Assembly: GCF_015624425.1 (NCBI RefSeq)
Contig: NZ_CP049919.1
Location: forward strand, 5,642,001-5,706,000
DNA from: Roseateles sp. DAIF2
GTDB taxonomy: Bacteria > Pseudomonadota > Gammaproteobacteria > Burkholderiales > Burkholderiaceae_C
DNA length: 64,000 nt
Direction of reading: 5' to 3'
Of this stretch, positions 7,802 to 35,916 are shown in pieces. The notes under the pieces were generated by a model. That model was given only the letters and a program-made list of their open reading frames with translations, was not told the origin of the DNA and made no database searches. The position numbers and the translations under genes were made by a program. Every line of letters begins with the position of its first letter. The first letter of the stretch is position 1.

Positions 7802-9323
7802 GTTCCAGCTCCTCGAAGGTCGTTTCGCCGCGGCAGACCGCTTCCAGCGTCATCACCCGCAGCGGCTTCATGCCGCGGCCGCGCGCGGCCTCCTTGATCT
7901 GCGACATCGGCGCGCGCGCCGCGATCAGGTCGCGCAGGCCGTCGTCCAGCTTCAGCAGTTCGGCCACGGCGCGGCGGCCGCGGTAGCCGCTGCCACGGCA
8001 ATGGCCGCAGCCCTCGCCGCGCAGGAAGCGATGCTCGCTGTCGGGCTTCAGCCCATGGCGCAGCAGGGTCGCGGCGTCCGGCTGATGCGGCCGCGCGCAA
8101 TGCGTGCACACCAGGCGCACCAGGCGCTGCGCCAGCACCGCGTTCAGCGCCGACACCACGTTGTAGAGATCCAGGCCCATGTGCATGAAGCGCCCGATCA
8201 CGTCAAACGCGTTGTTCGCATGCACGGTCGAGAACACCAGGTGCCCGGTCAGCGCCGCCTGCACCGCGATCTGCGCGGTCTCGCTGTCGCGGATCTCGCC
8301 GACCATCACCCGGTCCGGGTCGTGGCGCAGGATCGAGCGCAGGCCGCGCGAGAAGGTCAGGCCCTTCTTCTCGTTGACCGGAATCTGCACCACGCCGGGC
8401 AGCTGGTACTCGACCGGGTCCTCGATCGTGATGATCTTGTCCTGGCCGGTGTGGATCTCGGCCAGCGTCGCGTAGAGCGTGGTGGTCTTGCCCGAGCCGG
8501 TCGGGCCGGTGACCAGCAGCATGCCGTGCGGCTGGCGCGCCTGAGCGCGGATCGCGGCGCGCTCCTCGGCGCCGAAGCCCAGCGCATCCAGGGTCAGCGA
8601 GCCCTGCGACTGTTCGATGCGCGCGCGGTCCAGCACCCGCACCACCGCGTCCTCGCCGAACACGCTGGGCATGATCGAGAGGCGGAAGTCGATCTCGCGG
8701 CCCTGCACGCGCAGCTTGAAGCGGCCGTCCTGCGGCAGGCGGCGCTCGCCGATGTCCAGCTCGGCCATCACCTTCAGGCGCGAGACCAGCTGCTCGGCGA
8801 CCTGGGCGCCCTCGACCTGGCGCACCGGCGCCATCACGCCGTCGATGCGGAAGCGGATCGTCGCGCCGCGCGCGGTGCATTCAATATGCACGTCGCTGGC
8901 GCCGTCCTGCAGCGCATCGTAGAGCGTCGCGTTGAGCAGGCGCACCACCGGGCTGGCCTGTTCCGAGAGGCGCAGCGCCGACAGCTCCTCGGCCTGCTGC
9001 GCGCCGGCGCCGGCCTCGGCCAGGCCCTCGTCCACGTCCGACAGCGCGCGGAAATCCGCCTCGCCCGCGCCCAGCCAATGCTCGACCGCCGCGGCCTCGC
9101 AGCGCAGCCAGCGCACCGGCAGCTGCAGCCGGGTCTCGACGCTCTGCAGCAGCAGCGCATCGGCATCGCGCTCGGCCAGCAGCATCGCGCGGCCGCCCTG
9201 CCCGACCGCCAGCACCGCGCGCCAGCGCTGCGCCTGGGCCTGCGGCCAGCGCTCGAAGTCCAGCTGCCAGGGGCCCTGCTCGGCCGGCAGCACATCCGTC
9301 AATGAATAGACCGTGGCGCTCAC
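7782..9323 (-). CDS. gspE: Type II secretion ATPase GspE
   Basis: The 513-residue ATPase has all family motifs: Walker A GPTGSGKTT, an Asp box (ITIEDPVEYQLPG), Walker B (RVMVGEIRD), a His box (HLVFSTVHAN) and the zinc-binding pair CTHC / CGHC in the C-terminal third. It would power pseudopilus assembly at the cytoplasmic face. The start is GTG 9323, whose GTGA overlaps the TGA of a relic gspF 3' end (see 9320-9379), indicating that gspF and gspE once overlapped directly. Confidence 0.96.
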   Translation of the reverse strand: MSATVYSLTDVLPAEQGPWQLDFERWPQAQAQRWRAVLAVGQGGRAMLLAERDADALLLQSVETRLQLPVRWLRCEAAAVEHWLGAGEADFRALSDVDEGLAEAGAGAQQAEELSALRLSEQASPVVRLLNATLYDALQDGASDVHIECTARGATIRFRIDGVMAPVRQVEGAQVAEQLVSRLKVMAELDIGERRLPQDGRFKLRVQGREIDFRLSIMPSVFGEDAVVRVLDRARIEQSQGSLTLDALGFGAEERAAIRAQARQPHGMLLVTGPTGSGKTTTLYATLAEIHTGQDKIITIEDPVEYQLPGVVQIPVNEKKGLTFSRGLRSILRHDPDRVMVGEIRDSETAQIAVQAALTGHLVFSTVHANNAFDVIGRFMHMGLDLYNVVSALNAVLAQRLVRLVCTHCARPHQPDAATLLRHGLKPDSEHRFLRGEGCGHCRGSGYRGRRAVAELLKLDDGLRDLIAARAPMSQIKEAARGRGMKPLRVMTLEAVCRGETTFEELERVTLDE

Positions 9324-9492: not shown

Positions 9493-10704
9493 TCATTGAA
9501 CTTGCTCCACCAGCTGGAAGATCGGCAGGTACATCAGCACGATGATCCCGCCGATCAGCACGCCCATGATCAGCATCAGCGCCGGGTTGATCGCGCGCGT
9601 CAGCAGTTCGGTCAGGCGCACCGCCTCCTCATCGTGGAAGGCGGCGGCACGCTCCAGCATGCCGCTGAGCTCGCCGCTGCGCTCGCCGACCCGCACCATG
9701 CGTCGCGCCACCGGCGTGGCCAGATCCTGCGCCTCCAGCGCGTCGGAAAAGCGCGCGCCCTCGGCCACCTGGGCCGCGGCCGCGGCCACCGCCGGGCGCC
9801 AGGGCGCGGCCACCACATCCTGCACGATGCGCAGCGCGGTCAGCGCCGGCACGCCGGAGCCCAGCAGCATCGCCAGGCTGCGGTACAGCCGCGCCAGCGC
9901 CAGCACGCGCAGCCGCGGGCCCAGACCCGGCAGGGTCCAGAGCGAGGCCTGCAGGCGCTGGCGCAGGCCCTGGTGGCGCCACAGCGCAAGACCTGCCCCC
10001 GCCAGCGCGGCGATGCCGCCCAGCACCAGCCAGGGATGGGCGCCGGCGGTACGGCCAAAGCCGATCAGCGCGCGCGAGGCCCAGGGCAGTTGGTCGCCCA
10101 GCCCGTCCAGGATGCCGGCGAAGCGCGGCAGCACGAACAGCAGCAGGAACAGGATCACCGCCGAGCCCACCAGCAGCAGCATCGCCGGGTAGACGCAGGC
10201 CGCCACCAGGCGCGAGCGCAGGCTCTCGACCCAGGCCAGATAGCGCGCATGCTGGGCCAGCGCAACGCTCAGCTGGCCGGTGCGTTCGTTGGCCGCGACG
10301 ATGGCGCAGACCAGCTCGTCGAAGGCCTGCGGCTGCCGGCGCATCGCGCTGGACAGTGGCTGGCCCTGCTGCACCGCCTCCACCACGCCATCCAGCGCCT
10401 CGCGCACCGAGGCCTGGGTTTCCTTCTCGCGCAGGGTGCTGAGCGCCTCCAGCAGCGCGATGCCGGCATCCAGCAGCACCGCCAGCTCCTGGCTGAACAG
10501 CTGCAGCGGGAAGCGGCCGCCGCGGCGCGGTGCGCGGCCGGCGGCGGCTTGACCGGCCGGGCCGCCCAGCTCCTGCACCTCCAGCAGATGCTGGGGCGCG
10601 ACGCCGGCGGCCAGCGCGACGCCCTGGCGGTCCGGCGCCTCGACGCGGCGCGAGGCGGCCGCCCCGAGCACGGGGTCGAACACGCGGATCAGGTACTGCG
10701 GCAT
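9493..10704 (-). CDS. gspF: Type II secretion inner-membrane platform protein GspF
   Basis: The 403-residue protein shows the tandem GspF/PilC repeat architecture: two cytoplasmic helical bundles (about residues 65-190 and 265-390), each followed by membrane helices (VYPAMLLLVGSAVILFLLL; LMLIMGVLIGGIIVLMYLPI) and ending FQLVEQVQ. It anchors the pseudopilus assembly machine. The downstream junction to gspE was rebuilt by an insertion that duplicated the last 60 bp of this gene. The gap to upstream gspG is only 37 bp. Confidence 0.95.
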   Translation of the reverse strand: MPQYLIRVFDPVLGAAASRRVEAPDRQGVALAAGVAPQHLLEVQELGGPAGQAAAGRAPRRGGRFPLQLFSQELAVLLDAGIALLEALSTLREKETQASVREALDGVVEAVQQGQPLSSAMRRQPQAFDELVCAIVAANERTGQLSVALAQHARYLAWVESLRSRLVAACVYPAMLLLVGSAVILFLLLFVLPRFAGILDGLGDQLPWASRALIGFGRTAGAHPWLVLGGIAALAGAGLALWRHQGLRQRLQASLWTLPGLGPRLRVLALARLYRSLAMLLGSGVPALTALRIVQDVVAAPWRPAVAAAAAQVAEGARFSDALEAQDLATPVARRMVRVGERSGELSGMLERAAAFHDEEAVRLTELLTRAINPALMLIMGVLIGGIIVLMYLPIFQLVEQVQ

Positions 10705-10741
10705 GGGCGAGGGAAGAGCAACAAGACGGCGGCCGACCGGC

Positions 10742-11200
10742 TCACCAGCTGGTCAGGTCGGCGTCCTCGCCCTCGCCGCCGGGGCGGCCGTCGCGGCCCA
10801 GCGACAGCAGGTCGTACTCGCCATGCTCGCCGGGCGAGCGGTACTGGTAGTCGTTGTGCCAGGGATCCTTGGGCACCGCCTTGGCCAGATAGGGGCCGGC
10901 CCAGCGCGGCTCGTCGGCCGGCTTGGCGACCAGCACGGCCAGACCCTGCTCGGTCGTCGGGTAGCGGCCCACGTCGAGGCGGTACTGGTCCAGCGCCTTG
11001 GCCAGCGCATCGATCTGCGCCCGGGTCGCCTTGACCTCCGACTTGCCGATCTGGCCGAAGAACTTCGGCCCCACATAGCCGGCCAGCAGGCCGATGATGA
11101 CCATCACGACCAGCAGCTCCAGCAGGGTGAAGCCGCGCGCGGGGCTGCGGGACGGGGTGCAAGAGCGGGCGGTGGAGAGGGACGACGGCAGCAGGGACAT
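10742..11200 (-). CDS. gspG: Major pseudopilin GspG
   Basis: This 152-residue major pseudopilin has a 22-residue basic leader, the cleavage motif RG|FTLLELLVVMVIIGLLAG, and the GspG signatures GRYPTTEQGL, KDPWHNDYQY and the calcium-site end GRDGRPGGEGEDAD, finishing LTSW. It is the first gene of the minus-strand secretion operon, so the promoter should lie between it and ssb. ATG 11200 was taken because it gives a complete prepilin leader; the frame continues upstream without a sensible start. Confidence 0.95.
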   Translation of the reverse strand: MSLLPSSLSTARSCTPSRSPARGFTLLELLVVMVIIGLLAGYVGPKFFGQIGKSEVKATRAQIDALAKALDQYRLDVGRYPTTEQGLAVLVAKPADEPRWAGPYLAKAVPKDPWHNDYQYRSPGEHGEYDLLSLGRDGRPGGEGEDADLTSW

Positions 11201-11978: not shown

Positions 11979-12132
11979 GATGCGCGCTCCGCTGGCGTTT
12001 CATTAAATATCTAAAGCGCGATTATGCCGCCGCCCGTCCAGCGACCGCCCAGCCGCATCTGGCGGCCCGGATCCCGCACTTGATCGCCCCGCCGGCGCCC
12101 GCCGGGATGCCGCACCTAAGATGGCGCCCATC

Positions 12133-13239
12133 ATGTCCACCCCGGCCCCCTCCCGTCCCGAATCGAACCGCCGCCTCTGGCTGGCCTACGCCGGCCTGTG
12201 CCTGCTGTGCTGGATGCTTTATGCGATGGCCGGCGCCGAGCTGCAGCGCGGCGTCTGGCAGCTCTGGGAGGCGGCCTACCAGGCCACCCTGAGCCTGACG
12301 CCGCCGATGCTCTTGGGCCCGCTGGTCTGGCTCTGGGTGGGGCGGCTGGAGCGTCGCGAGCGCGGCCCGGCGCTGCAGCTGCTGCGGCATGGCCTGGGTG
12401 CGCTGCTGTTCGCCGCCGCCTGGCAGCTGCTGGAGTTCGGCCTGGCCTGGTGGCTGTTCGGCCCCGAGCATGCGCGGGCGATCTTCCTGCAGGCGGTGCT
12501 GTGGCGCGGCATCTGGGGCGTGTTCGTCTACAGCGCGCTGGCCAGCGGCTTCACTGCGGTGCTGAACGCGCGGCGCGCCCGCGCCGCCGCGGTGGCCACG
12601 GCCCAGGCCGAGTCGGCGCTGGCGCGGGCCGAGCTGTCAGCGATCAGCGGCAAGCTGAATCCGCATTTCCTGTTCAACACCCTGAACACCCTGATCGCGC
12701 TGACCCGCAAGGACCCGAAGGCGGCGGAATCGGCCCTGCTGCGCTTCGCCGGCATGCTGCGCTATGTGCTGGACACCAAGCGCGGCGCCGATGCCCGCGT
12801 CAGCCTGGCCGAGGAGGTGGACTTCGTGCGCGACTACCTGGCGCTGGAGACCCTGCGCCTGGGCGCGCGGCTGGCGGTGGACTGGCAGATCGAGCCCGCC
12901 ACCCTGGACGACGAGATCCCGCCGCTGACCCTGCAGCCGCTGGTCGAGAACAGCATCCTGCATGCGATCGCGCCGCGCACCCAGGGCGGCAGCATCAGCA
13001 TCACCGCGCGCCGCGATGCGCTCAACGAGGGCCTGGCGCTGACCGTGCAGGACGACGGCCCGGGCTGCGACCCCGCCACCCTGAGCGCCCCACCCGCTCG
13101 CCACAAGGGCAAGCCCGGCATCGGCCTGTCGGCCCTGCAGCGCCGCTTCGCGCTGGACTACGAGGGCCGGGCCCGCTTGCGGATCCATACCGCCCCCGGC
13201 GCGGGCTTCCGCGTCGACCTCTGGATACCTCAGACCTGA
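12133..13239 (+). CDS. LytS/AlgZ-family sensor histidine kinase
   Basis: The 368-residue kinase has four or so membrane helices in its first 150 residues and a His_kinase domain of the LytS type: the phospho-acceptor His in LNPHFLFNTLN (about residue 182), a Pro-Leu-VEN segment (LQPLVENSILHA) and a G-box DDGPGCD followed by GIGLSALQRRF. It should phosphorylate the LytTR regulator encoded 11 bp downstream. ATG 12133 fits the start of the hydrophilic N-terminus; an alternative ATG lies four codons earlier. The signal sensed is unknown. Confidence 0.88.
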   Translation: MSTPAPSRPESNRRLWLAYAGLCLLCWMLYAMAGAELQRGVWQLWEAAYQATLSLTPPMLLGPLVWLWVGRLERRERGPALQLLRHGLGALLFAAAWQLLEFGLAWWLFGPEHARAIFLQAVLWRGIWGVFVYSALASGFTAVLNARRARAAAVATAQAESALARAELSAISGKLNPHFLFNTLNTLIALTRKDPKAAESALLRFAGMLRYVLDTKRGADARVSLAEEVDFVRDYLALETLRLGARLAVDWQIEPATLDDEIPPLTLQPLVENSILHAIAPRTQGGSISITARRDALNEGLALTVQDDGPGCDPATLSAPPARHKGKPGIGLSALQRRFALDYEGRARLRIHTAPGAGFRVDLWIPQT

Positions 13240-13250
13240 ACAACAGCACC

Positions 13251-14009
13251 ATGCCCAAGATACGTACCCTGATCGCCGAGGACGAGCCGCTGGCCTGCGA
13301 GGCGCTGGCCGACTGGGTGCGCGAGCTGCCGCAGCTGGAGCTGGTAGCCTGCTGCGCCGATGGCGAGAGCGCGCTGGCGCAGATCCGCGCGCTGCAGCCC
13401 GAGCTGGTGCTGATGGACATCCAGATGCCCGGGCTGACCGGCCTGCAGGTGCTGCGCGCGCTCGGCGAGGCCGGCGCCGGCGGCCTGGAGCGCCGGCCCG
13501 CGGTGATCTTCACCACCGCCTACGACGAGCATGCGCTGACCGCCTTCGAGCTGCATGCGGTGGACTATCTGCTCAAGCCCTTCTCGCAGGACCGCTTCGT
13601 CGAGGCGGTCGAGCATGCGCTGGCCAATCTGGGCACGCCGCTGCCGCCCTCGCTGGAGGCCAGCCTGCAGGAGCCCGAGACCCCGCTGACCCGCATCCTG
13701 GTACGCGATCAGGGCAAGATCTTCCCGCTCAATATCGAGGCGATCGAATACCTGCGCTCCGACACCAAGTACACCGCGATCGCCAGCAAGGGCCGCCAGT
13801 TCCTGGTGCGCCTGCCGATCACCAGCTTCGAGCAGCGCCTGGACCCGGCGCGCTTCCTGAAGCTGCAGCGCAGCTGCATCGTCAACCTGGACTTCGTCGA
13901 GGCGATGACGCCCGACGAGAGTTCGCAGCTGGTGGTGCAGATGCAGGACGGCACGCGCTTCACCGCCAGCCGCGAGGTCTCGAAGAAACTGCGGGAGCAA
14001 TCGATATGA
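13251..14009 (+). CDS. LytTR-family response regulator
   Basis: The 252-residue protein has an N-terminal receiver domain (phospho-acceptor Asp56 in LVLMDIQMPG, Lys in YLLKPF) and a C-terminal LytTR DNA-binding domain (about residues 150-250, IEYLRSDTKYTAI and FLKLQRSCIVNL). It is the partner of the kinase just upstream. Its stop overlaps the start of the DUF2807 gene (ATGA), so the three genes are one operon. Confidence 0.92.
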   Translation: MPKIRTLIAEDEPLACEALADWVRELPQLELVACCADGESALAQIRALQPELVLMDIQMPGLTGLQVLRALGEAGAGGLERRPAVIFTTAYDEHALTAFELHAVDYLLKPFSQDRFVEAVEHALANLGTPLPPSLEASLQEPETPLTRILVRDQGKIFPLNIEAIEYLRSDTKYTAIASKGRQFLVRLPITSFEQRLDPARFLKLQRSCIVNLDFVEAMTPDESSQLVVQMQDGTRFTASREVSKKLREQSI

Positions 14010-14743
14010 AGCGCTGCCTCTCCCCCCGTCCCCTGTTCGGCGGCGCCTTGCTGGCGCTGACCCTGGCCCTGCCCGCGCTGGCCGAAGCGCAACAGCAGGC
14101 GGGCCGCAGCTACGCCCCGGGGCCCTTCACCCGCCTGGAGATCAGCGGCGCGGCCGACGTGCGCCTGCTGCAGGGCGAGCGCGACGAGGTCTTCATCGCC
14201 GGCGGCGAGGAGGTGCAGAAGAGCGTGGAGCTGGAGCTGCGCCGCGGCCGGCTGGAGATCCAACCCACCGGCGGCTGGAAGTTCTGGCGCAGCGCGCGGC
14301 TGCAGATCGAGGTGACGGTCAAGCAGCTGGAGCAGCTGGAGCTGTCCGGCGCCAGCGACCTGCATGCGCCGGGCCCCTTCCGCGCCGAGCGCCTGACCAT
14401 CGGCATCTCCGGCGCCGGCCTGGTGCGCTTCGACGACCTGCAGGCCGAGACCCTGCGCTTCGGCATCTCCGGCGCCGGCGACGGCCAGCTGCGCGGCCAG
14501 GTGCGCGCGCTGGCGCTGAGCGTCTCCGGCAAGGGCAAGCTGATGGCCGAGCAGCTGCGCACCGACACCGCCGCGGTGACGATCAGCGGCGTCGGCAACG
14601 CCGCGCTGTGGGTGACGCAGAACCTGCGCGTCAACGTCTCCGGCGTCGGCACCGTCGACTACTGGGGCCGCCCGCAGGTCTCGCGCTCCTCGTCCGGCAT
14701 GGCGACGATCAATGCGCGCGGCGATGCGCCGGCGGCGAACTAG
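14006..14743 (+). CDS. Exported DUF2807 (putative auto-transporter adhesin, head GIN) protein
   Basis: The 245-residue product has a signal peptide (residues 1 to about 28, LAEAQ) and a repetitive beta-helix-like domain in which ISGAADV, LSGASDL, ISGAGLV, ISGAGDG, VSGKGKL, ISGVGNA and VSGVGTV recur at regular intervals, the hallmark of DUF2807. The family is named for a putative adhesin but its function is unknown. It is translationally coupled to the LytTR regulator, so it is a likely output or accessory of that two-component system. Confidence 0.85.
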   Translation: MKRCLSPRPLFGGALLALTLALPALAEAQQQAGRSYAPGPFTRLEISGAADVRLLQGERDEVFIAGGEEVQKSVELELRRGRLEIQPTGGWKFWRSARLQIEVTVKQLEQLELSGASDLHAPGPFRAERLTIGISGAGLVRFDDLQAETLRFGISGAGDGQLRGQVRALALSVSGKGKLMAEQLRTDTAAVTISGVGNAALWVTQNLRVNVSGVGTVDYWGRPQVSRSSSGMATINARGDAPAAN

Positions 14744-17264: not shown

Positions 17265-19991
17265 ATGCATCCATCCCGCCGCCCGCCGCATTCCCTTGCC
17301 CCTCTCGTCCTGCTGCTGGGCCTGGCCGGCGCGGCCCAGGCGGCGCCGAATCTGGAGCGGGTGGAGGTGACCGGCTCGGCGATCAAGCGGCCGGAGAGCG
17401 AGGGCGCGCTGCCGCTGCAGGTGATCACCCGGGCCGAGATCGACAAGGCCGGCATCACCACCGCGGCCGAGCTGGTCGCCAAGCTGGCGGCCAATGCCGG
17501 CGGGCTGACCGATGGCGCCAGCATCTCCGACGGGCGCGACCAGCGCGGCCTCAACTCCGCCAGCCTGCGCGGGCTGGGCACCTCGTCGACCCTGGTGCTG
17601 CTGAACGGCCGGCGCATGGCCAACTTCGCCGCGCCGGGCGACGACGCCGGCGTGGACCTGAACATCATCCCGGCCGCCGCGATCCAGCGCGTCGAGGTGC
17701 TGCTGGACGGCGCCTCCTCGCTGTACGGCAGCGACGCGATCGGCGGCGTGATCAACTTCATCACGCGCAAGGACTACCGCGGCGTGGAGCTGAACGCCTA
17801 TGGCGGTGGCTCCAGGGAGGGGGGGGCCGGCAAGCGCACGGCCGGCCTGACCGCGGGCTTCGGCGACCTGGCGCGCGATCGTTTCAATGTGTTCACCGTG
17901 CTGGACCTGCAGAAGACCGATGCGCTGCGCAGCTCGCAGCGCAAGTTCATCGCCGACCTGAAGGTGCCGGAGCGGCTGCCGCATCTGCTGTCCAGCTTCA
18001 CCTCGCCGGCCAATGTGCTGGTCTCGCGCAGCCAGCGCGACTTTCTGGCGGATGCGGGCCTGCGCATCGGCGGCCGGCCCCTGGAGAACACCCGGTTCAA
18101 CTTCGCCGCGCCGGACTGCAACCCGCCGGCCTCGCTCTACCTGCCGTCGGGCATCGGTGGCGACCAGGGCTGCACCTACGACTACATGCGCGACACCGAG
18201 CTCTATCCCAAGAGCGACAAGTCCAGCCTGCTGGCGCGCGGCGTGTTCCAGCTCACGCCCGAGCACCAGCTTTATGCCGAGTACGCCCATGCGCGTGCGC
18301 GCAGCTGGTATGTGGCCTCGTCGGCCCGCGTGACGGCCAGCGTTCCCTACACCGTGGTGCCGGGCCTGCGCGGCACCCGGCTGGAGGAATCGGGCGACGA
18401 GATGGTCGACCTGCGCATGCGCCTGCTGGAGGCCGGCAACCGCACCAGCGACCTGACCAGCACCGGCCAGCGCCTGGTGCTGGGCGCCACCGGCAGCTGG
18501 GCCGGCTGGGATTACGACCTGGCGCTGAACCGCAGCCGCAGCACCATGAGCGATCGCAACACCCATGGCTATCTGCTCTACGACAAGCTGATCGACGGCA
18601 TCAAGCAGGGCCTGATCAATCCCTTCGGCCCCTCATCCGCCGCGGGGCTGGCCTATCTGGACAGCATCCAGGTGGACGACGTGACGCGCCGCGGCGTCGG
18701 CACGATGCAGGGCATCGACTTCAAGTTCAGCCGCGCCATCGGCCAGCTCGCCGGCGGCGACCTGATGCTGGCCCTGGGCGGCGAGCTGCGCCGCGAGCGC
18801 ATCAGCTACCGCCTCTCCCAGCTGCTGCTGAGCGACAACATCAACAACGACGGGGTCAGCTTCCTGACGCCGCTGCCCCAGCCGATCCCCGCCGAGGGCC
18901 TGGAGTTCGCCAACGGCCGACGGGTCCGGGCCTGGTTCGCCGAGCTGAACGCGCCGCTGAGCCAGCAGGTCGAGGCCCAGCTCTCGGTGCGGCAGGAGCA
19001 TACGCAGGGCGTCGGCAGCGCGATCAGCCCCAAGATCGGCCTGCGCTACACGCCGAGCGCGCAGTGGTTGCTGCGCGCCTCGCTGGGCCGCGGCTTCCGC
19101 GCGCCCTCGCTGGACGATCTGCACCGCCCCCCGCGCGAAAGCAGCACCTCCACCCTGGCCGATCCGGTCTGCATGGCCAACAACGACAACGATCTGGCCT
19201 ACTGCGCCTTCGAGTGGACCACCCGCCGCTACAGCAACCCGAACCTGAAGCCCGAGCGCAGCCGCCAGGGCACCCTGGGCGTGGTGTTCGAGCCCAACAA
19301 GCATGCCGCGCTGGGCCTCGACTTCTGGGACATCCGCCGCAGCAATCTGATCGGCGATATCGGCGACGACGTGATCCTGGGCAATCTGGCCAAGTATGGC
19401 CACCTGGTGCACCGCGACGAGGATGACGAGATCGACTACATCGAGCTGCGCAAGGACAACCGCGGCGCCCAGCAGGCCCAGGGCTTCGATCTGAGCGCCG
19501 ATCTGCGCGAGCTGCGCAGCCCGGTGGGCGAATTCGCGCTGCGCTTGCGCGGCACGCTGACCACCAAGTCGCGCCTGCAGACCGCACCCGGCGATCCCTT
19601 CGTCAGCAATCTGGGTCGCTTCGTCACCGAGGGTGCGGTGCAGCGCTGGCGCCATCGCCTCAGCGTCGACTGGTCACCGCAGCAGAACCGCTATGGCCTG
19701 ACCCTGTCGAACAGCTACAGCAGCGGCTACGAGGACCAGAACCGGGCCATCGACACCAACAGCGGCACGGTGGTGCAGGTCAACCGCGTCAAGGCCTATT
19801 CGATCTGGGACCTGAGCGGCTGGTGGGAGCTCGGCGAGGGGCTGACCCTGCGCGCCGGCGTGCAAAACCTGGCCGACAAGGCACCGCCCTATTCGAACCA
19901 GGCCTATCACTTCCTGTCGGGCTACGACCCGAGCTACACCGACCCGCGCGGGCGCTATGCCTATCTGAGCCTGCGGCTGGTTCTGAAGTAG
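17265..19991 (+). CDS. TonB-dependent outer-membrane receptor
   Basis: The 908-residue receptor begins with a signal peptide ending AAQA and a TonB-box/plug entry segment NLERVEVTGSAIKR, then the plug domain (VLLNGRRM, IQRVEVLLDGASSLYGSDAIGGVINFI), and a 22-strand barrel ending in YLSLRLVLK. This plug style is typical of receptors for peptides, carbohydrates or unknown nutrients rather than of siderophore receptors; the ligand is unknown. ATG 17265 is preferred over the ATG 18 codons upstream because it starts the signal peptide. The stop lies one base from the stop of the convergent small protein gene at 19993. Confidence 0.9.
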   Translation: MHPSRRPPHSLAPLVLLLGLAGAAQAAPNLERVEVTGSAIKRPESEGALPLQVITRAEIDKAGITTAAELVAKLAANAGGLTDGASISDGRDQRGLNSASLRGLGTSSTLVLLNGRRMANFAAPGDDAGVDLNIIPAAAIQRVEVLLDGASSLYGSDAIGGVINFITRKDYRGVELNAYGGGSREGGAGKRTAGLTAGFGDLARDRFNVFTVLDLQKTDALRSSQRKFIADLKVPERLPHLLSSFTSPANVLVSRSQRDFLADAGLRIGGRPLENTRFNFAAPDCNPPASLYLPSGIGGDQGCTYDYMRDTELYPKSDKSSLLARGVFQLTPEHQLYAEYAHARARSWYVASSARVTASVPYTVVPGLRGTRLEESGDEMVDLRMRLLEAGNRTSDLTSTGQRLVLGATGSWAGWDYDLALNRSRSTMSDRNTHGYLLYDKLIDGIKQGLINPFGPSSAAGLAYLDSIQVDDVTRRGVGTMQGIDFKFSRAIGQLAGGDLMLALGGELRRERISYRLSQLLLSDNINNDGVSFLTPLPQPIPAEGLEFANGRRVRAWFAELNAPLSQQVEAQLSVRQEHTQGVGSAISPKIGLRYTPSAQWLLRASLGRGFRAPSLDDLHRPPRESSTSTLADPVCMANNDNDLAYCAFEWTTRRYSNPNLKPERSRQGTLGVVFEPNKHAALGLDFWDIRRSNLIGDIGDDVILGNLAKYGHLVHRDEDDEIDYIELRKDNRGAQQAQGFDLSADLRELRSPVGEFALRLRGTLTTKSRLQTAPGDPFVSNLGRFVTEGAVQRWRHRLSVDWSPQQNRYGLTLSNSYSSGYEDQNRAIDTNSGTVVQVNRVKAYSIWDLSGWWELGEGLTLRAGVQNLADKAPPYSNQAYHFLSGYDPSYTDPRGRYAYLSLRLVLK

Positions 19992-19992
19992 G

Positions 19993-20304
19993 TCAGCACA
20001 GCACCGTCTGCGGCTGGGCGCAGACTGCGGCGACGGTGCTGCTGTCGGCTTGCAGCGAATCCAGGCGCGGCGCGGCCGCCATCACGACGCTGCGGCGCCC
20101 CTCGATCAGCACGCGCGGCAGTTGTTGCGCCACGCGCTCGGCGCCCAGCGCGCTCTTGCCGGTGATCACGACGCGCTCCAGCACCATCAGCGGCTGGCGC
20201 GGCGTGGCGCCGGCGTTCACCAGCATCACCAGGGCCAGGGTCGCCGTGAAGGCGCCGAGGGCGGCCGGGATCGAACGGGTCGGGGCTTGCAGGGGCTGGT
20301 TCAT
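19993..20304 (-). CDS. Small exported protein with two TonB-box-like motifs (A)
   Basis: This unrecognised 103-residue protein has one hydrophobic N-terminal segment (about residues 18-36) followed by LERVVITGKS and QQLPRVLIEGRRS. These two motifs match each other and the segment LERVEVTG in the neighbouring TonB-dependent receptor. ATG 20304 was chosen because CAGGAG lies just upstream; the frame continues further upstream without support. The 3' end contains a strong hairpin (AGCACCGTC 20000-20008 with GACGGTGCT 20032-20040) that could terminate transcription from either side. Function unknown; it belongs with the genes at 20574 and 21076. Confidence 0.65.
   Translation of the reverse strand: MNQPLQAPTRSIPAALGAFTATLALVMLVNAGATPRQPLMVLERVVITGKSALGAERVAQQLPRVLIEGRRSVVMAAAPRLDSLQADSSTVAAVCAQPQTVLC
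20098..20183 (-). repeat. Two motif copies encoding xLxRV(V/L)(I/V)xG(K/R)
   Basis: On the plus strand the copies read GATCAGCACGCGCGGCAGTTG (near 20104) and GATCACGACGCGCTCCAG (near 20164). The same degenerate motif occurs near 20672, 21141 and 21191, giving five copies in 1.1 kb, all within small minus-strand genes and in the same reading frame. Confidence 0.6.
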
Positions 20305-20361
20305 GGTGGACTCCTGGGGAAGGTGGATCGCAGGCTTCGGGGAGGAAGAGGGATCTGCGTT

Positions 20362-20421
20362 GTCGATGAAGTCAGTGTCGGCCGCGGCGCGGGCCTTCGC
20401 CATGCGCTTGCGACGAACTGC
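20362..20421 (-). promoter_or_regulatory. Bipartite conserved upstream element of small gene A
   Basis: Plus-strand blocks GTCGATGAAGTCAGTGTCGG (20362-20381) and GCGACGAACTGC (20410-20421) are separated by 28 bases. The first block matches the copy upstream of gene C at 18 of 20 positions and the second is identical, with the same 28-base spacer length and no spacer conservation. It begins 58 bases upstream of the ATG, consistent with a promoter or operator read on the minus strand. Confidence 0.65.
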
Positions 20422-20503
20422 GCCGATGCCGGCGTCAGCGGTCCCTGGACGCGATGGACCTGAAACGGCGCGGCACCGGATCGGCGCTGCGACAGGCAAG
20501 AAA

Positions 20504-20528
20504 AAACCCGGCTGCTCGAGCCGGGTTT
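20504..20528 (-). terminator. Terminator behind small gene B
   Basis: Perfect 10-bp arms AAACCCGGCT (20504-20513) and AGCCGGGTTT (20519-20528) enclose a 5-base loop. The A-run on the left makes it a minus-strand terminator, 46 bp after the stop of the gene at 20574-20813, showing that genes A and B are separate transcription units. Confidence 0.85.
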
Positions 20529-20573
20529 CACTTTGAAGAGGCGACTGACCTGGCGCCGGCTTGCCACCTCTCG

Positions 20574-20813
20574 CTACTGGCGGCGGACCTGCGCCTCGTC
20601 GCGCTGCAGCTCCGCCACCCGCATCGCGGCGGGAGCGGCGGCGGCCGCACTCGCGGCGGTGCTGCGGCCCTCGACCACGACGCGTTCCAGCTGCACCACC
20701 GTATGCCGTTGTTCCGGCTGGCCGCGCTCGGCCAGCAGCAGCGCCATCACGACGGCGCTGGCGACGGCCAACACGGCGGTCAAAAAGGTCTTGCTGCTGT
20801 CACTCATCGTCAT
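20574..20813 (-). CDS. Small membrane-anchored protein with one TonB-box-like motif (B)
   Basis: This 79-residue protein of unknown function has an N-terminal hydrophobic helix (about residues 8-26, FLTAVLAVASAVVMALLL) without an obvious cleavage site, then QLERVVVEGRS and an alanine-rich, charged tail ending QVRRQ. The start is ATG 20813 (a second ATG lies two codons in). It has its own terminator and a version of the shared upstream element. The product would present the motif to the periplasm if the helix is a signal anchor. Confidence 0.6.
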   Translation of the reverse strand: MTMSDSSKTFLTAVLAVASAVVMALLLAERGQPEQRHTVVQLERVVVEGRSTAASAAAAAPAAMRVAELQRDEAQVRRQ

Positions 20814-20859
20814 GATCGCTACTCCATCCAGGCGGGAATCGGCTTTTGTCAGTGCTGGC

Positions 20860-20907
20860 AGTGTCGGGCCCCGGTCGTCAAGCCGCCAGCGCTGCGCGAC
20901 GAGCTGC
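20860..20907 (-). promoter_or_regulatory. Bipartite conserved upstream element of small gene B
   Basis: Only the distal part of the first block is kept (AGTGTCGG, 20860-20867), but after exactly 28 bases the second block follows as GCGACGAGCTGC (20896-20907; one mismatch to the other two copies). The identical spacing in three places argues against chance. Confidence 0.5.
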
Positions 20908-21075
20908 GGCCGGACTCGCATGAACTGCCGCCGGGCGCGATGAAGCGGCCCGCCGCAGAGGAAACCGAGTCACCGCGGCACGCGTCGACGAGACGCATGC
21001 GGCCGTGGCTCGGCTCCATTCAGGAGCCGGCCGGATCGGGTAAGGACATGAAGAACGGCATCGCCAGGCTCCCGT

Positions 21076-21312
21076 TCAGCCGCGGCGGGCGGTGGGCTTG
21101 GCCGCGGCCAGCTGCGTGCCGCTCGCCAAGCTGCGGCCTTCGATCACGACGCGCGGCAGCTGCACGATGACGGTCTGCACCGACTTGCCGGTGACCACGA
21201 CGCGCGGCAGTTGCTCGACGACCTTCTGCGGCGCGGCCTGGGCCAGACCGGCGGCGGCCAGGGCGGTGATCGCGATGAAGGCGCTGCGGACGGTGGTGAT
21301 GGTGGTTTGCAT
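21076..21312 (-). CDS. Small secreted protein with two TonB-box-like motifs (C)
   Basis: The 78-residue precursor has a clear signal peptide (residues 1 to about 26, ending GLAQA), leaving a mature peptide of about 52 residues made mostly of two motif copies, QLPRVVVTGKS and QLPRVVIEGRS, separated by six residues, and a basic tail ending TARRG. ATG 21312 has CAGGAG upstream. I do not recognise a named family; similar short exported proteins with an RVVVxGR pattern seem to occur in related bacteria. With genes A and B it forms a paralogous trio. Confidence 0.7.
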   Translation of the reverse strand: MQTTITTVRSAFIAITALAAAGLAQAAPQKVVEQLPRVVVTGKSVQTVIVQLPRVVIEGRSLASGTQLAAAKPTARRG

Positions 21313-21356
21313 GATGTTGACTCCTGTTTTTGCGGTTTGACGCGGCCCTTTGCTGC

Positions 21357-21416
21357 GTCGATGGAGTCAGTATCGGAAGTCATGCCCGCGCGATCCAGGC
21401 GGGCGCGACGAACTGC
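21357..21416 (-). promoter_or_regulatory. Bipartite conserved upstream element of small gene C
   Basis: Blocks GTCGATGGAGTCAGTATCGG (21357-21376) and GCGACGAACTGC (21405-21416) have the same 28-base spacer as upstream of gene A. On the minus strand the order is GCAGTTCGTCGC, N28, CCGATACTGACTCCATCGAC, then the ATG 45 bases on. This could be an ECF-type promoter or an activator site; I cannot assign the regulator. Confidence 0.65.
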
Positions 21417-21476
21417 AGGGACGGTCGACCGAACCGTCATCCGGCGCGATGACCGTATGGCGACAAGGCAGAGCGA

Positions 21477-21620
21477 ACAGGCTGTTGAAAACCGTCGCGA
21501 GGACGGCCAGCGGCTAGGGCGCCCGGAGCGCAGGAACCGGAACGTACTTCCTGTACGTGAGGATTCCGAGCACCGCGCAACGACGCAGATGGCCGCCGCA
21601 GTAGGTTTGCAACAGCCTGT
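21477..21620. mobile_element. MITE-like palindromic element, 144 bp
   Basis: Terminal inverted repeats ACAGGCTGTTGAAAA (21477-21491) and TTTGCAACAGCCTGT (21606-21620) match at 14 of 15 positions. The interior has a central hairpin ACGTAC/GTACGT (21542-21558) and codes for no protein. The right end touches the stop codon of the hybrid kinase gene, so the element may also act as its 3' hairpin. Elements with these CTGTTG ends recur in proteobacterial genomes as far as I recall. Confidence 0.7.
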
Positions 21621-23560
21621 CAGCCCAGCACCCGCTGCACCAGGCCCGCCAGATCCTCCAGCGTCTTCTCCTTCTGCAGCAGGCCCGGCAGGCCCAGCAG
21701 GCGCGCCTGGGCGCGCAGCTCCTCGGTGATATGGCCGGAGCTGATCAGCACCGGCAGCGCCGGCGCGCGCGAACGCAGCTCGCGCGCCAGGGCCAGGCCG
21801 GTGGTGCCGGGCATGTTGTAGTCGCTGACCAGCAGGTCCACGTCGCCCGCCGCGACCAGGGTCAGGGCTTGCGCGGCGTCGCCGGCCAGGCTGACCCGGT
21901 AGCCCTGGCGCAGCAGCAGCCCCTGCACGGTCAGGCGCATCACCTCGTCGTCGTCCACATAGACGATATGCTGGCCCTCGCCCCGCCCTTCCAGGTCGAG
22001 CAGCGGCGCGGGCTCGGTGGCCGGGCCGTCCCAGTCCAGCAGCGGCAGGTAGAGATGGAAGCAGCTGCCCTGGCCCGGCGTGCTGTCGACCTGGATCTCG
22101 CCCTGGTGGGCCAGCACGATGCCATGCGCCACCGCCAGACCGAGACCGGTGCCCTGGCCCTGCGGCTTGGTGGTGAAGAAGGGCTCGAACAGATGGCTGC
22201 GGGTGATCTGGTCCATGCCCTTGCCGTCGTCGCGCACCCACAGATGCACGCGCGGCGCGGCGCCGGCCAGGCGCTCGGCCGCCAGGCCGACCTCGACGGT
22301 TCCGGGCCGGCCGTCCAGCGCATGCCAGGCGTTGGTGCACAGATTCATCAGCACCTGCTGGATCTGGGTCGCGTCGGCGCGCACGAACAGCGGCTCCTCG
22401 CACAGGTTCAGCTCCAGCTGCACGCCCGCCGGCGTCGCCGCGCGCAGCAGGGCCAGGCTCTCCTGCACCAGCGGCTGCAGGCGCACCGCGCGCAGCTCCT
22501 GCGGCTGGCGGCGGCTGAAGGCCAGGATCTGCTGCACCAGGCTGCGCGCGCGCTCGCCGCCGATGCGGATCAGGCCCAGATGGGTGGACGCCGGGTGGCT
22601 GGCCGGCAGCTGCTCCAGCGCCAGCGCCACATTGCCGAGCACCGCGCCGAGGATGTTGTTGAAGTCATGCGCGATGCCGCCGGCCAGACGGCCCATGGCC
22701 TCGAGCTTCTGCGCCTCGCGCAGCTGGGTCTCCAGCTCCTGGCGCCGCGCTTCGGCCTGCACCCGCTCGCCGAGGTCGATATCGACGCAGTACAGCTCGG
22801 CCTCGCCATGGCTGTTGCGCTGCATCGTGTGGCTGGAGAACACATGCACCGGGCTGCCGTTCTTGTGCTGCAGCACCAGCTCCTCGGCCGGCGTCGAGAC
22901 CTTGCCCGAGGCCAGCCATTCGCGCGTCGCCTCGATCACAAAGGGGCGCATCGGCGGCGGGATGATCAGCTCCTCCAGCTGCCGGCCCAGCGCCTCGGCC
23001 TTGCTGAAACCGTAGAGCTGCTCGCTGGCCGCGTTCCAGAAGATCACGCGGCGCTGCGCGTCATAACCCTGTACCGAAACCTTCTCGACCCCCTCCAGCA
23101 GCGCACGAAAGCGGCTCTCGCTGTCCTGCAGCGCCTGCTCGGCCTGGCGCGCGGCACTGATGTCCAGCAGCAGCGCATGCCACAGCACCGTGCCGTCCTG
23201 GCGCGGCTGCGGCCGCCCCGCGCCCTGCAGCCACAGGCGCCGGCCAGAGGGCGTGACGAGGCGGAACTCCACATGCCAGGGCGTCAGCTCGCGCGCCGAG
23301 CGCAACAGCGAGGCGCGCAGCGCCGCCCGGTCGGTGGGCGCCACCAGGCCCCACAGCCGCGCGACATCGCGCTCCACCTCGGCCGGCTCCAGCTCCAGCA
23401 GCTCCAGGCAGCGCGGGCTCATCTCGTAGATGGCGTCCTGGCCGTCGGGCCACAACACATACTGGAACATCAGGCCGGGCAGGTTGTCGGCCAGATAACG
23501 GAAGTTGGCTTCCGCCGCATGCAGCGCCTGCTCCAGCCGCTTGTTGCGCAAGCTGTCCAT
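21620..23560 (-). CDS. Hybrid sensor histidine kinase (PAS-PAS-HisKA-HATPase-receiver)
   Basis: The 646-residue protein has no membrane helix, so it should sense a cytoplasmic signal. Order: PAS domain (about residues 15-130), second PAS (about 145-265), HisKA with the acceptor in GGIAHDFNNILGAVLGN, HATPase_c with LMNLCTNAWHAL, DDGKGMD and GTGLGLAVAHG, and a C-terminal receiver with Asp in DLLVSDYNMPG. The AHDFNN signature marks the NtrB-like group often found in hybrid kinases. ATG 23560 is favoured by AGGGAG upstream; an in-frame ATG 20 codons earlier is possible. No cognate regulator gene is adjacent. Confidence 0.9.
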   Translation of the reverse strand: MDSLRNKRLEQALHAAEANFRYLADNLPGLMFQYVLWPDGQDAIYEMSPRCLELLELEPAEVERDVARLWGLVAPTDRAALRASLLRSARELTPWHVEFRLVTPSGRRLWLQGAGRPQPRQDGTVLWHALLLDISAARQAEQALQDSESRFRALLEGVEKVSVQGYDAQRRVIFWNAASEQLYGFSKAEALGRQLEELIIPPPMRPFVIEATREWLASGKVSTPAEELVLQHKNGSPVHVFSSHTMQRNSHGEAELYCVDIDLGERVQAEARRQELETQLREAQKLEAMGRLAGGIAHDFNNILGAVLGNVALALEQLPASHPASTHLGLIRIGGERARSLVQQILAFSRRQPQELRAVRLQPLVQESLALLRAATPAGVQLELNLCEEPLFVRADATQIQQVLMNLCTNAWHALDGRPGTVEVGLAAERLAGAAPRVHLWVRDDGKGMDQITRSHLFEPFFTTKPQGQGTGLGLAVAHGIVLAHQGEIQVDSTPGQGSCFHLYLPLLDWDGPATEPAPLLDLEGRGEGQHIVYVDDDEVMRLTVQGLLLRQGYRVSLAGDAAQALTLVAAGDVDLLVSDYNMPGTTGLALARELRSRAPALPVLISSGHITEELRAQARLLGLPGLLQKEKTLEDLAGLVQRVLG

Positions 23561-31523: not shown

Positions 31524-33779
31524 TCAGAACTTGTAGGCGACCGTCATCTGCAGATCACGCCCCTTGCCGGGGATGTAGTGGCCGCGATAGAGCATGTCGG
31601 CATACAGCTTGTTGCTGATGTTGGTCAGGTTGGCCTTGAAGCTCAGCTTGTCCACCGTGTACTCGGCCATCAGGTCGGCGGTGATGAACTTCGGCGCCCA
31701 CGTGGCCGGCGCCAGCTGCGGCGTGTCACCGCTGCGCGCGTTCAGGCCCAGACCCAGACGCAGGGCCGGCGTCACCTTGTAGGTGGTCCAGATCGTGCCA
31801 CTGTGGCGCGGGGTCAGGCCGGGACGCGAACCGACGGCCTCGCCGGCAGCGGCGGCAGCGCTGGCCTTGTCCACCTTGGCATTCGGGATGTAGGCATACG
31901 AAGCGAAGATCTCCCATTCGGGCGTGATGCGGCCGGCAATGTCGAACTCCAGACCGGAGGCATGACGCTCGCCCGACAGCACGTAGTTGCAGGCATTGAC
32001 CGTCTCGGAGTCGCGGTTGCGCTCGTTGTACTTGGTGGCGCGGAACAACGCGAAACGGGTCGTATAGCGACCTTCGGCCCAATCCAGCTTGCCACCCAGT
32101 TCGATGTTGCGGCTGGACTCGGGATCGACATTGGCCGTACCGGCGTCGTACTGATAGGTATCGCCCGAAGTATTGAACGAGGTGCCGTAGGAGAAGTGAT
32201 AGGACTGTGCCGCCGTAGGCTGGAACAGCACGCCCGCGCGCTTGCTCCACAGCGAGTCGCTGCGACTGACCTTGGCCGCAACCGGCACGCCGCAAATGTT
32301 GTTACCCGGGTTGACCGCGATGTTGTGGTACGTCCCCTCAAAGCGATCCCAGCGCAGGCCACCCAGCAGCTTCCACTGCGGGGTCAGCTGCAGCAGGTTC
32401 TGGACATAGGCCGCCTGCCCCTTGGCGTCGAACGTACGATTCAAGGTGACGGGCCGCGCAGCCTCGTTGGCCGAACCACCGTCGTTGGGGTTGCCGATCG
32501 TGGTCGTCGGCTTGGCCAGCGCGGGCACGCCGTAGTTCTTGAAATCCTCATGCGCCAGCTCCAGGCCCGCGGTCACGTCATGCTTCAGACCGAACCAGCC
32601 GAACTTGCCGCTGTAGTCGCTCTGCAGGTACTGGGTATCCATGTCCTGGATCTTGGCCTGACTGCCGCGTGTCAGCACGGTGGCATTGCTGATCGTGTCG
32701 GAAGTGACGGCCTTGCGGTCCGGTTGCGACGCGGCACCGGCAAAGCGGATCGCGCTGGCGCGCAGGTCGCGATCGTAGGTCGCGGCGCGGAACTGGGTGC
32801 GCAGCTCGCCGCCATCCAGGAAGCGGTGCACATGACCGATGGTGCCGTAGGCGACGCTGGACTTGCTGTAGTCGCTGGCGGCGCCGTAGTAGTTCTTCGG
32901 GTCGATGTGGATCAGGCGGTCGCCACCCTTGGTCGGGCCTGGGGTCAGCCAAGGCATGCCGTAGTGCACACCGTTGTTGTTGTCCAGGTAGTAGAAGCTG
33001 ACCAGGAATTCGTCGGCCGTGCCGATGCCCCAGCGGAAGCTGGGCGCAACGCCCTGCTTGCTGATCTTGTTGCCGCGGTTGTCGGCCTCGGTCACCATCG
33101 TCGAGACGCGGAAGGCGGCATCCTCGCCGGTCTTCATGTTGGCATCGCCGACCACGCGGAAATAGCCGCCCTGGCCACCGGTGACGGCCACCTCGCCTTG
33201 GTTGATCAGCAGCGGCAGCTTATTGACCTGGTTCACCGCGCCGCCGGTAGAGCCGCGGCCAAACAGCATCGAGGCCGAGCCGCGCAGCACTTCGAGGCGG
33301 TCGTAGTTGAAGGTGTCGCGCTCATAGAAGGCCGGATCGCGCATGCCGTCGATGAAGATGTCGCCGGTGGATTGCAGCGAGAAGCCGCGCAGGCGGATGT
33401 CTTCCTCGCCGCCTTCGGCCGCCTGGAAGGAGATGCCGGCGGTGTTCTTCAGCGCATCCTTCAGGGTGTCGAGGTTGCGGTCATCAATCAGGCGTTCGGT
33501 CACCACGGTCACCGACTGCGGAATGTCGCGCAGTTCCTGCTTGCCCTTGCCGATGCGGGTCTCGGTGGCCTGGTAGTCGTCCTTGCCGGCGCGCTCGGTG
33601 CTGGCCTTGGCGCGCACCACGGGCAGCGCGGTCTCGGTCTTGGCCGGCTCGGCGGCCGGGGCGGTCTGGGCCAGCGCGGCCGAGGCCAGGCCGAAGCCGG
33701 CGGCGAGCGCGCCCAGGGGCAGCAGGGTGGCGGCGGCCCGCGCCTGGACGGCGGGCTTGTGCGTTTTACGACGGGTCAT
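31524..33779 (-). CDS. TonB-dependent siderophore receptor (Fiu/PiuA-like)
   Basis: The 751-residue receptor has a signal peptide ending ALAQ, a plug domain with the siderophore-receptor signatures LRDIPQSVTVVTERLI, IRLRGFSLQSTGDIFIDGMRDPAFYERDTFN and EVLRGSASMLFGRGSTGGAVNQVNK, and a barrel ending in QMTVAYKF. Together with piuC next door it matches the catecholate receptors Fiu/PiuA. It follows exbD after about 125 bp without a strong terminator, so it is probably part of the Fur-controlled tonB operon. Confidence 0.94.
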   Translation of the reverse strand: MTRRKTHKPAVQARAAATLLPLGALAAGFGLASAALAQTAPAAEPAKTETALPVVRAKASTERAGKDDYQATETRIGKGKQELRDIPQSVTVVTERLIDDRNLDTLKDALKNTAGISFQAAEGGEEDIRLRGFSLQSTGDIFIDGMRDPAFYERDTFNYDRLEVLRGSASMLFGRGSTGGAVNQVNKLPLLINQGEVAVTGGQGGYFRVVGDANMKTGEDAAFRVSTMVTEADNRGNKISKQGVAPSFRWGIGTADEFLVSFYYLDNNNGVHYGMPWLTPGPTKGGDRLIHIDPKNYYGAASDYSKSSVAYGTIGHVHRFLDGGELRTQFRAATYDRDLRASAIRFAGAASQPDRKAVTSDTISNATVLTRGSQAKIQDMDTQYLQSDYSGKFGWFGLKHDVTAGLELAHEDFKNYGVPALAKPTTTIGNPNDGGSANEAARPVTLNRTFDAKGQAAYVQNLLQLTPQWKLLGGLRWDRFEGTYHNIAVNPGNNICGVPVAAKVSRSDSLWSKRAGVLFQPTAAQSYHFSYGTSFNTSGDTYQYDAGTANVDPESSRNIELGGKLDWAEGRYTTRFALFRATKYNERNRDSETVNACNYVLSGERHASGLEFDIAGRITPEWEIFASYAYIPNAKVDKASAAAAAGEAVGSRPGLTPRHSGTIWTTYKVTPALRLGLGLNARSGDTPQLAPATWAPKFITADLMAEYTVDKLSFKANLTNISNKLYADMLYRGHYIPGKGRDLQMTVAYKF

Positions 33780-33904
33780 GGGGAGGACTCCTGTTTGCTT
33801 GTGTTGAACTGGCTAGGAAACGGACGGGCATGGCGCTGCCCGGACGACCTGGCTGCAGCGCGGGGCTGGTGGCTTGGCCGCCTAGATGTAGGACAGCGGG
33901 AGAA

Positions 33905-34324: not shown

Positions 34325-34349
34325 GGCTCGGGCTCCTTGCTGATGCGGC

Positions 34350-35108: not shown

Positions 35109-35154
35109 GATGTAGAGAGAAAGAAGAGGAGTCGCGGGAGTCGTCGGAGGAGGA

Positions 35155-35916
35155 TCAGCGATCCAGCTCGTAGGACAGCAGGGCCGTGGTTTCCCATTCG
35201 ATGGGCTGGCCGTTTTCGGTATAGGGAGCGAAGCGCGCGCTGCGGATGTCCTGCAGCGCCTGCTGGTCGATGCGGGCGAAGCCGGAGGACTTCCGGATCG
35301 TGGCCTCCTTCAGCAGGCCGCGGGCATCGACCACGATGCGCAAATGCACCAGCCCCTGCTCGCCCAGGCGGCGCGACAGCAGCGGCACGGTCATCTTGGG
35401 CTCGACCACGTAGCGCACGGCGCTGGGCGGGATCAGCTTGGGTGCCGGCGGTGCGGGCGGCGCCACGGGTGCGGGCGGGGCCGGCGGCGCGGGCACGGCG
35501 GCCACCGGCGCGGGCACCGGATCGGGCGCGGGCGTCACGAAGACCGGTGGCGCCGGCGAGGGCGACGGCGCGGCGGCGATCACCGGCGCGGGCGCCGGAC
35601 GCGGCTTGACCGGCTGCGGCGCGGGCGGCGGAGGCGGGGTCGGTTTCGGCGGCTCCGGCGCCTGGATCAGGCTGACCATGATCGGTGCGGCCTCGACGAC
35701 GGCCTGGCGCACCGCATCGACCTGCAGCAGCGCCCAGCCACCCAGCACATGGGCCGCCAGCACGCCACCGGTCAGCGCGCGACGCGCCACCGGCCCCAGC
35801 TCATCGGTCTGGCCGGGCCGCGGGGGGGCGCTGAGCACCGCGCGGCTCTTCGGCGCGACGGGGCTGGCGGAGGGAAGGGAACCGCTCGAATCGGCGGTGA
35901 GTGAGGCTTGAGTCAC
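35155..35916 (-). CDS. tonB: Energy transducer TonB
   Basis: The roughly 253-residue protein has an N-terminal membrane helix (ALTGGVLAAHVLGGWALL), a long proline-rich rod (PKPTPPPPPAPQPVKPRPAP and similar) and the C-terminal TonB domain (LGEQGLVHLRIVVDARGLLKEA, then SSGFARIDQQAL). It transmits ExbBD energy to outer-membrane receptors. The start is uncertain: GTG 35916 is given; GTG 35949 is possible. The start must lie downstream of the Fur box at 35971, which excludes the longer open frame. Confidence 0.88.
   Translation of the reverse strand: MTQASLTADSSGSLPSASPVAPKSRAVLSAPPRPGQTDELGPVARRALTGGVLAAHVLGGWALLQVDAVRQAVVEAAPIMVSLIQAPEPPKPTPPPPPAPQPVKPRPAPAPVIAAAPSPSPAPPVFVTPAPDPVPAPVAAVPAPPAPPAPVAPPAPPAPKLIPPSAVRYVVEPKMTVPLLSRRLGEQGLVHLRIVVDARGLLKEATIRKSSGFARIDQQALQDIRSARFAPYTENGQPIEWETTALLSYELDR

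Follow-up and report, generated by a model that had tools for sequence, protein, structure and literature searches.

TonB boxes and LytTR regulons are both known, but we are aware of no regulon made up of free TonB boxes. In many bacteria, TonB-dependent receptors number in the dozens and TonB complexes are few (PMC7142613), and the use of free Ton box peptide to stop TonB action in Escherichia coli is reported in PMC5413942, citing Tuckman and Osburne 1992. On the regulatory side, the AlgR site is given as having the core CCGTTCGTC and CCGTTCATC (PMC4064291), and the direct repeats of LytTR regulators as 9 bp separated by 12 (PMC6193735). Here we describe, by computation, a family of small genes in the pond bacterium Roseateles sp. 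DAIF2 and its relatives with a conserved TonB-box-like motif and a shared promoter, a like half-site at a LytTR operon, and the linkage and co-occurrence of that operon with the family. Such a family was not found among the titles and abstract openings of the open-access literature, a search mostly without subscription papers.

The analysis started from a window of 64,000 nucleotides (contig NZ_CP049919.1, positions 5,642,001 to 5,706,000), to which all coordinates below refer unless given in kb. Three small genes lie there on the minus strand: W1 (19993..20304; 103 amino acids, ending in a Cys pair), W2 (20574..20813; 79 amino acids) and W3 (21076..21312; 78 amino acids). An earlier note, made from the sequence of this locus, had their coordinates right and gave 79 residues as the smallest product, where W3 has 78. 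Its five motif copies, LERVVITGKS, QLPRVLIEGRR, QLERVVVEGRS, QLPRVVVTGKS and QLPRVVIEGRS, are present; they lie at 20158-20181 and 20098-20121 in W1, 20667-20690 in W2, and 21187-21210 and 21136-21159 in W3. The hydrophobic segment or signal peptide that it had placed at each N terminus reads, by eye, as a cleavable signal peptide in W3 and as a membrane segment in W1 and W2. The trio and its motif are thus real, and what the note missed is that the family is larger, with eight members in the genome, and that it comes with a shared promoter and a LytTR operon. No match above cut-off was obtained for the trio against Pfam and NCBIfam, and its products, of 78-103 amino acids, have neither a Plug or beta-barrel domain nor the receptor-binding or killing domains of colicins. 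Directly upstream of the W3 promoter region, an inverted repeat at 21468-21629 (26-nt arms, 81% complementary, 110 nt apart) has the look of a small mobile element or repeat.

The convergent neighbor of W1 is a TonB-dependent receptor (17265..19991, plus strand) with LERVEVTGS in its TonB-box region (17352-17378), at residues 30-38, as the earlier note had stated. The same shape of motif precedes the plug in 18 of 30 receptors that we read from this genome, for example LERVVVTGSAIKR and LERVEVTGSSIKR. From the 57 Plug matches of the genome, 30 N termini were read and 24 entered a TonB-box matrix that excludes five receptors without a clear box as well as the window's own receptor. With this matrix the trio scores 19.3, 16.9 and 18.1, and the eight members of the genome score 11.7-19.3 (shuffle P of 0.0005-0.001 each); among the 56 other window proteins, the adjacent receptor comes top at 26.5 and the next protein reaches 10.0. 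HMMER aligned VEVTGS of the window receptor to LVVTAN of BtuB from residue 8, and L8 of BtuB is placed within the Ton box in PMC5413942. Both the scores against this matrix of native receptor boxes and the BtuB alignment bear out the description of the motif as TonB-box-like. Outside the GTDB family, too, the family profile picks up receptor N termini, which by eye account for four of the five other genomes in the search of the order described below.

Profile and pattern searches of the whole genome (6,010,585 bases, one contig) identified eight members, namely the trio and single members near 618, 1939, 1957, 2594 and 5103 kb. The single members stand between other genes, and gene calls read by their N termini revealed no constant partner. 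A DNA pattern for the motif has 11 matches in the 6.01-Mb genome and none when reversed as a control; by position, nine of these fall within family members, one in another TonB-dependent receptor and one in neither. Among 200 genomes sampled from the GTDB family to which this bacterium belongs, 28 have the gene family at E<=1.3e-6, a threshold chosen after viewing the list and set just below the first receptor-sized match (3.8e-6); at E<=1e-3 there are matches in 40 of the 200, the weak ones including receptor-sized frames. A search of 300 genomes of the order gave matches at E<=1e-3 in six, this genome and five others, of which four carry receptor N termini and one an internal chance match. 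In a protein database, 912 of 7995 candidates scored match at E<=1e-3 and are of similar length. Among the 120 matches listed, which come from Roseateles, Pelomonas, Paucibacter and other sources, the source name where shown is mostly 'hypothetical protein', with single exceptions such as a 97-aa protein called 'TonB-dependent receptor'. Homologues with the motif, whose absence the earlier note would have taken as a refutation, are thus present in relatives. From its sequences, this is an unnamed, dispersed family of small proteins with predicted export. In the relative G030 there is a tandem member cluster (L059:3729-5213) whose proteins carry three or four motif copies each; one stretch of the cluster reads N. 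At another locus, three small exported DUF4148 proteins each adjoin a family member (L060:4219-4686, 7749-8138 and 10600-10980).

Over 105 copies the motif has the consensus [QK]-L-[PE]-R-V-V-[IV]-[TEV]-G-[KR], with the first V in 105, R in 97 and G in 101. Of 56 members read, 44 have two copies, 10 have one, one has three and one has four, counts that depend on the search expression used. By eye, members are of two types: in type A, represented by W3, the first copy follows soon after a signal peptide, and in type B, represented by W1 and W2, the copies follow a membrane segment. Type B members including W1 carry a C-terminal Cys pair that is all-or-none: in 23 of the 56 members the last residue is Cys and another Cys stands 5-14 residues before it, and only one of the other 33 has any Cys after residue 25. 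AlphaFold2 on W3 (40 sequences; mean pLDDT 62.8, pTM 0.24) predicted a helix over residues 3-24 and no fold for the mature part. In ten orthologue pairs, the motif has a pN of 0.011, a pS of 0.168 and a pN/pS of 0.07, against 0.078, 0.178 and 0.44, respectively, for the rest of the protein. Outside the motif, dN is about equal to dS in window-to-genus pairs, and this part is therefore fast-evolving. The earlier note had named conservation of a DNA palindrome rather than of codons as a possible refutation. It is the peptide that is conserved while codons vary, the synonymous sites of the motif changing as fast as those elsewhere, and the palindrome alternative therefore fails; nor do the inverted repeats that were found account for the motif.

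The members are united by a shared promoter rather than by a neighboring receptor, and this is the strongest feature of the finding. In its layout, a -10 element GAYACT is preceded, at 32 bp, by the first of up to three AlgR/LytTR-like half-sites, which follow one another at intervals of about 21 bp. Within the window, exact matches to the promoter core lie on the minus strand before W1 (20373..20418; half-site GTTCGTCGC, 30 bases, GACACTG), W2 (20859..20904; half-site GCTCGTCGC, 30 bases, GACACTG) and W3 (21368..21413; half-site GTTCGTCGC, 30 bases, GATACTG), the last with a further GTTCG half-site 21 bp upstream. We compared 56 upstream regions, consisting of three from members of this genome and 53 of 59 matches (one of L059, two of L077, one of L055 and two of L056 were left out; the eighth member of this genome, found later, is absent). 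In 49 of them a -10-like GAYACT or GAAACT aligns with a half-site TTCRTCGC ending 30 bases before it and with CCTGG between. A half-site matrix was then slid upstream over 38 sequences, those that remained of the 49 anchored ones once near relatives had been dropped; the seven unanchored ones were excluded. Two peaks stood out, one at 21 bp (z 5.8) and the other at 41 bp (z 7.7), and a third, at 31 bp, was weak (z 2.4). The alignment anchors had been selected with the expected half-site, and therefore only the 21- and 41-bp peaks are independent. The core GTTCGTC/GTTCATC of the member half-sites agrees with the AlgR core, and the 21- and 41-bp register of the repeats is that of LytTR direct repeats.

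The strict pattern GYTCRTCGC-N30-GAYACTG occurs exactly six times in the 6-Mb genome, each time before a member. As the pattern was derived from members, their matching it is expected; the informative parts of this test are the absence of other exact matches and the relatives. The 2594-kb member lacks the strict pattern, and the 1939-kb member has it with one mismatch. A wider pattern has 44 matches in 18 relatives and three for its reversed control. We translated 14 of the 44 sites and matched the other 30 by coordinate to the profile search: 37 precede small exported family genes, of which 33 carry the motif and the other four are degenerate or like W2, and seven sites lie elsewhere. One site pointed to an additional member, with two consecutive motifs, that is missing from the results of the profile search (G174:3306328, L203). 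Two of the 18 relatives, G084 and G111, have members yet no match to the pattern. With up to two mismatches the pattern gives 73 matches against 53 for the control, mostly chance. There are eight one-mismatch matches, five of which were translated; one belongs to the eighth member. Another (L106, G000:C1:2120776-2120821, minus strand) has an additional half-site 21 bp upstream and lies before the gene of a putative secreted hydrolase. This hydrolase has YQRVVVTGT in its N-terminal part and is possibly a further target of the promoter system. Taken as a whole, we hold co-regulation of the family with high confidence.

A candidate for the regulator is encoded in an operon at 12133-14743, which ends 5 kb from W1. 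On the plus strand it comprises a sensor kinase (12133..13239; PF06580 His_kinase and HATPase_c; start read by eye after the -10), a response regulator with receiver and LytTR domains (13251..14009) and, as third gene, a DUF2807 protein (14006..14743). Its promoter (12080..12122, plus strand) has a half-site TTGATC, 31 bases and TAAGAT. In 20 of 21 genomes, comprising this one and 20 relatives, a half-site TTSRTC lies upstream of this operon, 31-32 bp before TAAGAT, TAGGAT or TACGAT, with an ATG within about 20 bases; this pattern was written after viewing the sequences, and 12 of 4200 pieces shuffled by single bases match it. The regulator thus seems also to control its own operon, as judged from the half-site. 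Orthologues of the regulator (>=59% identity; second copies at 57%, next match at 45%) are present in 29 of the 200 genomes. Family and orthologue occur together in 22 genomes, the family alone in six, the orthologue alone in seven and neither in 165 (Fisher 4e-18, ignoring ancestry). Of the 22 genomes with both, 14 have the orthologue no more than 10 kb from a member, and 18 have it no more than 25 kb away. Among the LytTR genes listed, at least 11 of 16 genomes have one no more than 10 kb from a member, against a summed expectation of 1.5, in a count that took in seven of the nine LytTR proteins of this genome. At five orthologue loci in genomes without a family match, neither the promoter nor a small motif gene was found. 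Another gene pair of kinase and LytTR regulator, with an alpha/beta hydrolase gene after it, is located 4 kb from the 5103-kb member (L127:2066-6202). Given this operon and the nine LytTR proteins of the genome, assignment of the family to the regulator at 13251-14009, its predicted activator, is likely, not proven.

In the earlier note the trio had been taken for periplasmic TonB-box mimics that could compete for TonB or mark a partner, an interpretation that is partly supported, and had been paired with its adjacent receptor. The pairing does not hold as a rule, and we reject it as such, since by coordinates only one of the six member loci of this genome, that of the trio, has a Plug gene within 10 kb. 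Receptors near members are also seen at L062, L069 and L071. A second TonB-dependent receptor of the window, with Plug and barrel, lies next to the genes for ExbD (33905-34324), ExbB (34350-35108) and TonB (35155..35838, minus strand; PF03544 C-terminal domain), the whole spanning 31524-35838; its N terminus has no box of the LERVEVTG kind, and its TonB-box matrix score is below 7.5. A relation to receptors appears at the level of the genome, where Plug numbers are first-look candidates, scoring having been capped at 22 per genome. The median is 40 candidates in genomes with the family (n=28) and 10 in those without (n=172), or 47 (n=24) and 19 (n=62), respectively, among genomes of at least 4.4 Mb, and all 13 of the 200 genomes with at least 47 candidates have the family. 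Member copy number rises with the number of Plug candidates: rho is 0.71 over the 28 genomes with the family, or 0.76 when receptor N termini are counted in as members, and 0.56 over the 22 that have the LytTR orthologue. Shared ancestry and genome size contribute to this relation.

We tentatively favor, at slightly less than an even chance, the reading that the family is a LytTR-controlled set of disordered periplasmic or membrane-anchored proteins that act as detached TonB boxes, engaging TonB and changing its supply to receptors. The genes, scattered round the chromosome, would be read from one common promoter. The kinase at 12133-13239 would sense a signal, upon which the LytTR regulator would bind the direct repeats that lie, at intervals of about 21 bp, immediately upstream of the -35 region, and so turn on the set. 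The products would then reach the periplasm, type A (W3) freed by signal peptidase and type B (W1 and W2) held by the membrane segment, and there pair with TonB, with the gene product of 35155..35838 as the proposed target. Regulator binding, export, TonB binding and the effect on uptake are steps that we infer. Several observations count against this reading. Pro replaces the acidic residue in 67 of the 105 motif copies, and at the Thr position Glu (39 copies) or Val (20 copies) stands in 59. The motif is absent from the counterparts of W2 in the same genus (L068 and L069), which keep the membrane segment, and from four of the 37 promoter-linked genes. Moreover, six genomes have the family without the LytTR orthologue and seven show the reverse, this genome has nine LytTR proteins with another LytTR operon near the 5103-kb member, the strict promoter pattern misses the members of G084 and G111 and the 2594-kb member here, and the Cys pair of type B is not accounted for.

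One alternative that we regard as unlikely, though worth keeping in view, is an envelope role, still under LytTR regulation, in which the proteins make some other contact, for instance by self-pairing strands or by way of the Cys pair at the C terminus. The motif would then resemble TonB boxes by convergence, with no bearing on function. The all-or-none occurrence of the Cys pair, the near-invariant R and frequent P of the motif, which are less typical of TonB boxes, and the W2 counterparts that retain a membrane segment without the motif are all in keeping with such a role, but the closeness of the motif to the boxes of this genome's own receptors and the correlation with receptor number count against it. 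Another possibility is that the peptides help TonB, holding or staging it near the outer membrane or guarding it from proteases to the benefit of receptors. Such a helper shares the motif evidence with the reading as competitor, type B would be anchored in TonB's own membrane, and copy number rises with receptor number; free Ton box peptide is reported to block TonB action in E. coli (PMC5413942), however, and we consider a helper quite unlikely.

Somewhat less probable again are peptide-signal precursors, in which the motif would be cut out between basic residues, secreted and sensed by the kinase of the LytTR operon, activating the precursor genes as in Gram-positive pheromone circuits. LytTR control, the apparent self-control of the operon and small exported products with up to four repeats per protein would fit, but no constant exporter or protease gene was recognized beside members (by reading N termini, few neighbors being compared with Pfam), the copies are many and dispersed, and the likeness to receptor N termini would be left unexplained. 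That likeness, together with the loss of the motif in the W2 counterparts, might also suggest functionless remnants of broken receptor genes. We reject this very improbable explanation based on the pN/pS of the motif, which is conserved at the protein level, and on a promoter nearly specific to the family; the 912 homologues of similar length also speak against it.

If the reading as detached TonB boxes is true, regulated, genome-encoded free TonB boxes would be a control point on TonB that is directly testable with peptides, and would hint at a new way to control the powering of nutrient uptake. The promoter signature makes it possible to search for the regulon of this LytTR system, and offers a way into a family whose proteins at present mostly bear the label hypothetical. 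In a wider and more speculative form, which we hold with somewhat less assurance, receptor-rich bacteria would use a two-component system to fill or line the periplasm with TonB-binding peptides, setting the TonB energy that reaches receptors and perhaps closing the TonB route to phages and bacteriocins.

By comparison with known systems, the family resembles the TonB boxes of receptors (BtuB, CirA), colicins and pyocins in having a strand motif that follows the same pattern and lies close to the mature N terminus, in a part predicted to be disordered and periplasmic. It differs in standing alone, without plug, barrel or toxin domain, often in two copies, and in a motif with invariant V, near-invariant R and G and often P for the acidic residue. 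Like the DUF4148 proteins, three of which adjoin members in L060, its members are small, exported and multi-copy, but they form a separate sequence family, and the TonB-box motif was not seen in the DUF4148 N termini read. With the LytTR Regulatory Systems HdrRM and BrsRM of Streptococcus mutans, the system shares direct repeats of 9 bp, separated by about 12 bp and close to the -35 region, and, as predicted here, self-control of the operon; in contrast to these, it has no bacteriocin targets, belongs to a Gram-negative host, and has a kinase and receiver domain in place of the membrane inhibitor. There is also a regulatory likeness to AlgR/LytTR regulons such as that of AlgZR in Pseudomonas aeruginosa, with the GTTCGTC/GTTCATC core, phased sites, a PF06580 His_kinase-type sensor and a LytTR regulator, whereas the targets here are one dispersed family of small exported proteins with a fixed spacing of 32 bp.
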